DNA of 39,894 nt. Source: a virus. A model generated the notes under the pieces. It was not told the origin of the DNA. It made no database searches and was given only the letters and a program-made list of their open reading frames with translations. The translations under genes and the position numbers were made by a program. Of this stretch, positions 20,111 through 32,510 are shown piece after piece; the stretch's first letter is position 1, and the number at the start of each line of letters is the position of its first letter. The stretch covers positions 1 to 39,894 of the IMG/VR virus record IMGVR_UViG_3300013772_000031; one strand, written 5' to 3'.

Positions 20111-20611
20111 ATGACAAGCAATGATATCAAACACACTGCACGCTATCAACTGTCACGTTTTATACAATCAGAAGATTCATTCAAGTTAGACTTAGACTTT
20201 AAAGACATAGCCCTTCTTACAACAATTTTTGACTTTATGGATTCTGGCAAAGAAGAATGTTGTTTTGTTGATCAAATTAAATTAGCAAAAATTTCTCGTG
20301 TCCCGAGGAGAACTATAATTGAAAGGTTGAAGAAATTAATTAAATTTGAATTATTAAAAAAAGAAAGAAAAGGTTATAAAAATCACTATTTCATCGGAGA
20401 CGCCATTAAAAAGTATGTGCAGTCGCTGCACTTAGTAAGTGCTACAGCGGCACATAGTAAGTGCAGTAGCGGCACTTTATATAATAATAATTATAATAAC
20501 AGTTATAACAATAGGCATTCTGCGAACAATAAAAAACCAAATGCATTGAAACAAACGGCAAAAGAATGGGGGCCTGGTCATACTTCATGGGAAACGTTGC
20601 ATAAAATATAG
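20111..20611 (+). CDS. Winged-helix DNA-binding protein, possible replication initiator
   Basis: This 166-aa protein has a winged helix at about residues 50-100 (CCFVDQIKLAKISRVPRRTIIERLKKLIKFELLKKERKGYKNHYFIG), like the N-terminal domains of phage replication initiators and HTH_36-type proteins. After it the gene contains three 22-bp DNA repeats followed by a very AT-rich stretch coding Tyr/Asn-rich sequence. That layout recalls lambda O, whose origin lies inside its own gene. It is much shorter than lambda O and lacks an obvious helicase-loading C-terminus, so a transcription regulator is the alternative. Confidence 0.6.
   Translation: MTSNDIKHTARYQLSRFIQSEDSFKLDLDFKDIALLTTIFDFMDSGKEECCFVDQIKLAKISRVPRRTIIERLKKLIKFELLKKERKGYKNHYFIGDAIKKYVQSLHLVSATAAHSKCSSGTLYNNNYNNSYNNRHSANNKKPNALKQTAKEWGPGHTSWETLHKI
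20417..20482 (+). repeat. Three tandem 22-bp iterons, each GTGC-N7-GCAC, in the winged-helix gene
   Basis: Copies start at 20417, 20439 and 20461. Each opens with a GTGC(N7)GCAC palindrome; the first two end TAGTAA. AT-rich DNA (20475-20512) follows. Because 22 is not a multiple of 3, the copies are read in three frames (VQSLHLV, SATAAHSK, CSSGTLY), so the conservation is at DNA level. The spacing is about two helical turns, placing sites on one face. Candidate origin or operator array. Confidence 0.72.
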
Positions 20612-20620: not shown

Positions 20621-20693
20621 GCAAGCATAAAAAACAACTATTGTATTATACTTGCATTTGCATTAAATTACCTGCAAGCATAATACAATAGGA
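20621..20693 (+). promoter_or_regulatory. Operator-like palindrome overlapping the P63C promoter/RBS
   Basis: Nineteen-base arms at 20638-20656 and 20673-20691 are complementary except at one position, with a 16-base spacer. The half-site GCAAGCATAA occurs directly at 20621 and 20674 and inverted (TTATACTTGC) at 20646. TTGCAT (20659) and CATAAT (20679) could be promoter boxes with a short 14-base spacer. The right arm abuts the AGGA ribosome binding site (20690-20693) of the P63C gene, so either protein binding or RNA folding could block expression. Confidence 0.6.
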
Positions 20694-20702
20694 AATGTAA
20701 GC

Positions 20703-21719
20703 ATGATAGATAAAATATCTAAAAATAATAAGGCTAAAGGTGGGATTGCTAGAGCTTTATCCTTAACTAAAGATGAAAGAATAGAAATAGCTAAAAAAGC
20801 TGCAGAAACAAGATGGAATCCTGATATTTTAAAAGCAACTCATTCCGGAAACTTAATAATTGGAAAAATGAATTTCCCTTGTTCCGTACTATCTGACGGA
20901 ACACGTATATTAACACAAAGTAATTTCATGATCGGAATGGGAATGTATTACAGCGGATGGATTGCAAAAAATAAAAGCAAAGAACAGTCTGCTGCAGATA
21001 TACCACATTTTTTAGCATTTAAATCAATAACTCCTTTTATAAACAAACACTTAGGTGACCTGCAGTTTATTACCGTGAAATATCGAACTGAAAAAGGGAG
21101 TTTAGCTCATGGGATTAAGGCAGAAATTATTCCCAAAATTTGTGAAATCTGGTTAGATGCAGATGAAAATATCAAATTAGGTAAAAGGCAGAAAAAAATC
21201 GCACAAAATGCAAAAGTTTTAATGCGTGCTTTAGCTTATATCGGAATTGTTGCTTTAGTAGATGAAGTAACAGGATATCAAGAAATAAGAGATAAAGAGG
21301 CGCTTCAAAAAATATTAGATAAATATTTAACCGATGAATGGGCTAGTTGGAGTAAGACATTCCCAGAAACTTTTTATAAGGAATTATTTCGTTTAAAAGA
21401 TATAAAATATCCCATAGGAAATGGAAAAAATAGACCGAGTTATGTTGGGCATTGGACAAATGAAATTGTATATAAAAGATTGGCACCAGGTATTCTTTCT
21501 GAATTAAGAGAAAAAAATCCAAGTAGTTCGAATGGTATTAGACCAAAAAGACATCATCAATATCTTAGTAGAGATTATGGACATCCTAAGCTTAAAGAAC
21601 ATTTGTCTAATATCATTTTTTTAATGAAAACTTGCTCAAATTTTGAAGAATTTAAAATCAGATTAGATTTAGCGGTTCCAAAATATGGAAATAGTCTTTC
21701 ATTAAAATTAGAAAATTAA
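20703..21719 (+). CDS. P63C-domain protein
   Basis: This 338-aa protein carries a full P63C domain in its C-terminal part, including ALVDEVTGYQEIRDKEALQKILDKYL, WSKTFPETFYKELFRL, the GHWTNEIVYKRLAPGILSELREKNP segment and HHQYLSRDYGHPKLKEHLSNIIFLMK. The N-terminus is a basic helix (KDERIEIAKKAAETRW) and a segment (GNLIIGKMNFPCSVLSDGTRILTQ) typical of these proteins. The family is common in phages and mobile elements; its function is not established, and regulatory roles are suspected. The gene stands alone between two 25-bp repeats with its own operator-like leader, like a mobile or moron cassette. The AGGA site is 10 bases from the ATG. Confidence 0.85.
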   Translation: MIDKISKNNKAKGGIARALSLTKDERIEIAKKAAETRWNPDILKATHSGNLIIGKMNFPCSVLSDGTRILTQSNFMIGMGMYYSGWIAKNKSKEQSAADIPHFLAFKSITPFINKHLGDLQFITVKYRTEKGSLAHGIKAEIIPKICEIWLDADENIKLGKRQKKIAQNAKVLMRALAYIGIVALVDEVTGYQEIRDKEALQKILDKYLTDEWASWSKTFPETFYKELFRLKDIKYPIGNGKNRPSYVGHWTNEIVYKRLAPGILSELREKNPSSSNGIRPKRHHQYLSRDYGHPKLKEHLSNIIFLMKTCSNFEEFKIRLDLAVPKYGNSLSLKLEN

Positions 21720-29799: not shown

Positions 29800-29818
29800 T
29801 ACACAGGATGTTAGAAAG

Positions 29819-29841
29819 TTACCCACAGATTCTGTGGATAA
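29819..29841. promoter_or_regulatory. Inverted pair of DnaA-box-like sites
   Basis: The 23-base near-palindrome reads TTACCCACA on the plus strand and TTATCCACA, a perfect DnaA box, on the minus strand. Arms match at 10 of 11 positions around a central T. It lies between the regulator and the nuclease gene. Confidence 0.6.
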
Positions 29842-29873
29842 CTATTGACGCGTATAAGTATCAAGGAAGATAT

Positions 29874-30323
29874 ATGCATAAACCAAACAAGCCGCTTAAC
29901 AAAGAATATATGGCCGCATGGGGCGGCCTACACGGGAGCATTGTTGTACCTGTAAAGCCAACAAAGCCCAAGGCTAAGCTTAAGGTAACGCCGCATGAAT
30001 ATGTGGGACAGATTAAGTTAGTGGCCTGGGCGCGTGACGAGGGGCTATTGTTGCTATCCATCCCTAACGCTGGTAAGCGCTCATATATGCAAGGACAGAA
30101 AGAGCGAGCTATGGGTATGCATGCGGGTGCTAGTGACTTGCTTCTTGCCATGCCTAATAGGATATTCCATGGATACTTTATAGAAATGAAACGCAAAGGC
30201 GCTAAGCCTACGGAGTTACAGCTTAACTTTTTAGAAATGGCTGCGGGATATGGCTACCTTGCGAACTGGTTCGATGATTGGGAGCTTGCTAGGGATTCGA
30301 TCAAGCGGTATTTAATAACATGA
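29874..30323 (+). CDS. VRR-NUC domain nuclease
   Basis: From the ATG at 29874 (AAGGAAG upstream) the protein is 149 aa. It has the VRR-NUC motif set: PNAGKRS, then GASD (D88), FIEMKRKG (E104, K106) and TELQLNFLEMAAGYGYLANWFDDWELA (Q116). These form the PD-(D/E)XK-type active site of Holliday-junction or flap nucleases in phages and FAN1. It probably processes recombination or replication intermediates. Its stop overlaps the next ATG. Confidence 0.85.
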   Translation: MHKPNKPLNKEYMAAWGGLHGSIVVPVKPTKPKAKLKVTPHEYVGQIKLVAWARDEGLLLLSIPNAGKRSYMQGQKERAMGMHAGASDLLLAMPNRIFHGYFIEMKRKGAKPTELQLNFLEMAAGYGYLANWFDDWELARDSIKRYLIT

Positions 30324-32195: not shown

Positions 32196-32510
32196 ACCAC
32201 CTCACCCTGCATTAAATTCTTCCTCACCCCTCACCTGTTTTTGACGATAATTAGGTGAGGCGGGTGAGGCAGGGTGAGGTATGTATAATAACCCTCCTCA
32301 CCCGATCCGTGCCTTGGTACGTAAGGGTTTGTAGTATAGGGTGAGGAGGGTGATGTTATATTATACTTTAGATAGGTAGTACCTCTTTATGTTCTATATC
32401 TACACTATACGTATTATTATATTACAGCACCCCCCCCCTATAGGGGAATTCTCCTCTTTTCCCTCACCTACCTCACCCTGGGGTAAAATGTGACGGATTT
32501 TACCCCCCCC
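32196..32510. other. Noncoding GGTGAGG heptamer field around AT-rich DNA, candidate replication origin
   Basis: Ten exact GGTGAGG heptamers lie within 278 bases: plus strand at 32254, 32263, 32273 and 32340; minus strand at 32200, 32222, 32229, 32296, 32462 and 32471. They form nested stems: ACCTCACCCTGC with GCAGGGTGAGGT (32199/32269), CCTCACCT with AGGTGAGG (32229/32253), and ACCCTCCTCACCC with GGGTGAGGAGGGT (32291/32339). An AT-rich gap spans 32352-32428. Then come a 9-C run, palindrome CCCCTATAGGGG (32435-32446), and stem GGGGTAAAAT/ATTTTACCCC (32480/32497). Repeats flanking AT-rich DNA after a VirE helicase gene resemble satellite origins. Confidence 0.6.

Follow-up and report, generated by a model that had tools for sequence, protein, structure and literature searches.

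The window analysed here, a 39,894-nucleotide stretch of viral DNA, contains a gene for a 166-aa winged-helix protein that holds an array of three GTGC-N7-GCAC sites, and gene and array together probably constitute a lambda-type intragenic replication origin, at which the encoded initiator would bind and melt the DNA. We favor this lambda-style reading because many unrelated phages show the same layout in the genes that start their replication. For the phage of the window itself, the sequence makes an autonomous origin at the array plausible. In that phage, the array may also serve as a second origin or as an operator, or may be a relic, given a short initiator that is placed away from the replication module and for which no close relative was found, and given a rival candidate origin. 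The coordinates of the features are collected in Table 1.

Table 1. Array locus and second candidate origin, in window coordinates.
Feature	Position	Strand	Details
Putative initiator gene, 166-aa winged-helix protein (DnaD / O-like)	20111-20611	+	profile matches, AlphaFold model
Iteron 1	20417-20431	+	GTGCAGTCGCTGCAC, codon frame 0
Iteron 2	20439-20453	+	GTGCTACAGCGGCAC, codon frame 1
Iteron 3	20461-20475	+	GTGCAGTAGCGGCAC, codon frame 2
AT-rich stretch, candidate DNA unwinding element	20476-20519	+	86% AT, 44 bp
End of the short C-terminal part of the putative initiator	20520-20608	+	gene end after the AT-rich stretch
VapE-like helicase gene, 418 aa	30939-32195	+	chief replication gene identified in the window
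Candidate PICI/SaPI-type origin	32199-32478	.	CCTCACC motifs and AT-rich DNA; adjoins the 3′ end of the VapE-like helicase gene

The array in the window is beyond chance. All three sites match GTGC-N7-GCAC exactly with a start-to-start pitch of 22 bp, the same three-site array is recovered by TRF, and the peptides encoded at the sites in frames 0, 1 and 2 are VQSLH, SATAAH and KCSSGT, respectively. Outside the array, an exact GTGC-N7-GCAC occurs once in the window, at 1859, and shuffled sequence yields a mean of 0.38 such sites per whole window. Three sites with identical 4-nt inverted arms, following one another at a pitch of 22 bp, are found once in the window and in 0 of 60 dinucleotide shuffles. 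Coordinates, translation and shuffles therefore agree with the original prediction of three such sites, read in three frames inside a winged-helix gene. The predicted span of 20417-20482 holds for the sites but not for its 3′ limit, as the array proper stops at 20475 and positions 20476-20482 belong to the AT-rich part.

The design recurs in other viruses. An exact scan for three GTGC-N7-GCAC sites at 22-bp pitch returned 33 stretches of viral contigs, most of which hold a winged-helix gene with the array just 3′ of the domain. A looser scan (gaps 0-20) returned at least 120 viral stretches and at least 119 genome-contig stretches, and the arrays were assigned to genes with an iterated winged-helix profile. 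Among the matches listed, the DNA pattern alone yielded 137 viral arrays, of which 103 sit inside a winged-helix gene; in these, the array begins 3′ of the matched domain, in nearly every case by no more than 60 aa. Among the genome-contig matches listed, 12 of 124 arrays fall in winged-helix genes and the remaining ones look like unrelated repeats, many of them from Amycolatopsis. The winged-helix profile had 14 seeds, among them the window. Membership of the window by that profile would thus be circular, and it rests instead on the Pfam, PHROG and PHROG_270 matches. Array anatomy was compared in 85 non-redundant genes, including that of the window, which span a GC content of 0.27-0.75 and carry 376 sites with the consensus GTGCA-N5-TGCAC. 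These sites fall in codon frames 0, 1 and 2 in 122, 202 and 52 cases, and their spacing peaks at 17, 21-23 and 31-33 bp. Over 262 spacings, the periodicity at 10.5-11 bp reaches an R of 0.60, partly raised by the restricted gap range allowed in the scan, compared with an R of 0.09 at 3 bp. Judged from these sequences, array spacing follows the DNA helix and not the codons. The earlier proposal that selection acts on the DNA is supported by this helical periodicity, the near absence of a 3-bp signal and the use of all three frames.

The arrays are also accompanied by AT-rich DNA on one side. In the window, only 18 of 39,851 44-bp segments are less stable than the stretch 3′ of the array, which ranks fourth among the least stable distinct 44-mers. 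Across the loci, AT content 3′ of the last site lies 0.12-0.14 above the locus mean over ~40 bp and then becomes near normal. This excess is absent 5′, with the 3′ side being higher in 69 of 83 genes (p 2e-11), and none was found beside 106 genome-contig arrays outside winged-helix genes. The rise appears in synonymous codon choice as well, amounting to +0.19 AT per codon with the encoded amino acids allowed for. Short direct repeats, GAACCGTCA or TAACAATAAT for example, were also noted by eye, uncounted, in the 3′ AT-rich stretch of many loci.

Profile and structure comparisons place the family among initiation-type proteins. Among solved structures, the family profile matches best the DnaD N-terminal domain of B. 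subtilis (E 1.4e-4), and PHROG_270, a ‘replication initiation protein’, is matched by 39 of the 43 members sampled. The 97 genes downstream of array genes include 10 with matches to DnaB-type families, at least 6 with matches to a DnaC-like family and a few with matches to primase families. With arrays behind the winged helix, AT-rich DNA on the 3′ side only, proteins of initiation families and some replication neighbours, the family gives good support to the likeness to lambda ori within O that had been suggested, and lambda-type intragenic origins are its best reading, in keeping with the origins of lambda, Stx, P22 and L.

The window protein itself matches the replication-initiation and DnaD-like profiles PHROG_186, 428 and 270 (E 5e-7 to 2e-5), as well as Pfam HTH_36 (E 1.6e-4) and DnaD_N, both below the Pfam cut-off. 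An AlphaFold model built with 42 relatives contains a confident winged helix at approximately residues 8-106, followed by a tail that is modelled with low confidence and into which most of the site-coded residues fall. The array lies 3′ of the DNA-binding domain and 5′ of AT-rich DNA, as anticipated. The matches listed by a PDB fold search were generic winged helices only, mainly ArsR/MarR-type regulators, and no close relatives of the window protein were found in viral contigs or in phage or plasmid records, among phages even at E 10. Approximately 44 aa, in a low-confidence part of the model, follow the array where the C-terminal part for helicase recruitment would be expected, compared with well over 100 aa in most relatives. 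Short versions of the initiator occur elsewhere, beside a P-like loader at locus L060 and beside a DnaB-type primase-helicase at locus L214. The two neighbours of the initiator gene in the window, one a tail-side gene and the other a P63C gene, encode neither a helicase nor a loader, and the VapE-like helicase lies 10 kb off.

Several known systems share parts of this arrangement. The lambda and Stx origins lie midway along gene O and comprise iterons and an AT-rich region (PMC7466680, PMC5043065). They resemble the window in having ~20-bp dyad iterons inside the initiator gene followed by ~40 bp of AT-rich DNA (PMC7466680, PMC5043065), but their iteron sequence is not that of the window, and lambda O is longer and neighboured by gene P, whereas the window initiator is short and alone. 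Gene 18 of P22 and of phage L is O-like and has its own repeats inside the coding region, which is again similar to the window (PMC8022706). The repeats of P22, L and lambda differ from one another, and the printed phage L repeat is an 11-mer unlike the window sites (PMC8022706). Exact and one-mismatch GTGC-N7-GCAC sites, followed by GAACCAGTCA repeats, are present in the winged-helix replication genes SfV orf39, ST64B sb42 and cdtI orf46 and in that of Pseudomonas phage PseuP_222, which are annotated as replication proteins except in the cdtI record (hypothetical). Their proteins are longer than that of the window and possess a C-terminal part, and the genes lie in or adjoin early regulatory genes, unlike in the window. 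In the wider family, the GTGC sites are absent in Klebsiella phi12.5 and Salmonella S107 and SI5, in which the homologous winged helix is kept. Loci L261, L262 and L265 carry homologues of SfV orf39, likewise replication genes of the winged-helix kind, that are without GTGC sites, and repetitive PPVPP/PPMPP linkers in two of them suggest another iteron type. In RepA_N initiators of plasmids and satellites (pSK41, PLE RepA), a DnaD-like N-terminal winged helix binds semi-palindromic direct repeats (PMC7145576), a likeness echoed by the DnaD match of the family profile. RepA_N structures are absent among the matches listed, and we do not claim membership. A description of the GTGC-N7-GCAC site was not found in open-licence PMC literature, though it may still be described elsewhere.

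A second candidate origin, of satellite type, is apparently present in the phage of the window. Ten of the 13 CCTCACC motifs of the window lie within it, in both orientations and in two sets, and the DNA between the sets (32357-32430) is 74% AT. The PICI/SaPI origin layout has been described (PMC6092414, PMC7581432), and this segment resembles it in that AT-rich DNA is flanked by two sets of short repeats immediately beyond the 3′ end of a helicase gene (PMC6092414, PMC7581432), a likeness that concerns this segment and not the array. A CCTCACC-type cluster was absent at the same place in three phage VapE relatives examined. Searches with a tail-side protein or the VapE-like helicase gave no viral-contig relatives, and the terminase kin Pseudoalteromonas H6/1 and Vibrio 1.182.O have no array. 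GC skew was dropped as an origin marker because it mirrors gene direction, and it indicates no origin at 20.4 kb. The window contains 9 DnaA boxes, which is not clearly above chance, and none is near the array. Two facing DnaA-box-like sequences at 29823-29845 (TTACCCACA and, on the opposite strand, TTATCCACA) lie near the start of an ORF at 29808-30323.

If the array is a lambda-type origin, a dimer of the winged-helix protein would occupy each 15-bp palindrome. With two helical turns from one site to the next, the bound dimers would share one face of the DNA, which they would bend. Melting of the 44-bp AT-rich stretch that adjoins the array on its downstream side would follow, and a helicase, either the VapE-like helicase of the phage or host DnaB, could be loaded at the melted DNA. 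The part of the protein coded by the array would be a flexible tail, so that the DNA sites would be tolerated in any coding frame. We infer that the array may have origin activity in the window phage, perhaps as a second origin beside that at 32.2 kb.

The original prediction had left the choice between an origin and an operator. Its DNA-level selection is supported, and its lambda-ori likeness is well supported for the family. The autonomous origin is plausible for the phage of the window, with the missing adjacent helicase or loader gene, the short C-terminus and the second candidate origin speaking against it. We consider it unlikely that the winged-helix protein binds its own gene as an operator, blocking transcription of itself and of the P63C gene, with replication starting only from 32200-32478. 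Repressors are common among small winged-helix proteins, the fold search returned mainly regulators, and the gene is short and outside the replication module, with the helicase gene having its own candidate origin. However, the family consists mostly of initiation-type proteins, the one-sided AT-rich DNA is origin-like, and promoter-like sites around the array are not above chance.

It is slightly less likely still that the locus is a relic, namely a trimmed lambda-type initiator and origin from another phage that fell into disuse once the VapE-like helicase and its origin had been acquired. Such a history would fit the short C-terminus, the isolation between tail-side genes and P63C, and the locally lower GC, but the reading frame is intact, the three sites are perfect, and the short versions at L060 and L214 adjoin loader or helicase genes. 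A tandem duplication with no role at the DNA level, arising by chance or as a coding repeat, is highly improbable. A few tandem GTGC-N7-GCAC arrays elsewhere are indeed plain protein repeats, such as GAQGAQ, but here three frames give three different peptides, no shuffle reproduced the triple, and both the position and the AT-rich flank recur across unrelated phages.

For lambda and related phages, origins inside the initiator gene are already known, with repeats particular to each phage. Here, one site type recurs in initiation-type genes that differ widely in base composition, and the DNA pattern alone suffices to find it, so that many phage origins may be mappable from sequence. This kind of origin is known, its putative two-origin setting is unusual, and the array together with the satellite-type candidate origin would be a test case for two initiation systems sharing one genome. 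A bolder proposal combines two unrelated working origins, one of lambda type within a short, isolated initiator gene, with its melted DNA used by the VapE-like helicase, and one of PICI type next to the gene of that helicase, with GTGCA-N5-TGCAC as a widely shared initiator code; we regard this combination as rather unlikely.

Downstream of the putative initiator gene, the P63C-domain protein (20703-21719) matches phrog_2384 and has a weaker similarity to an anti-repressor family. Its relatives occur in Stx, Salmonella, Burkholderia and Gordonia phages, and no array was found near the P63C genes of other phages. Just 5′ of the P63C start codon at 20703, an inverted repeat at 20638-20691 has 19-bp arms that are 95% complementary with 16 nt between them, and this repeat is perhaps an operator.
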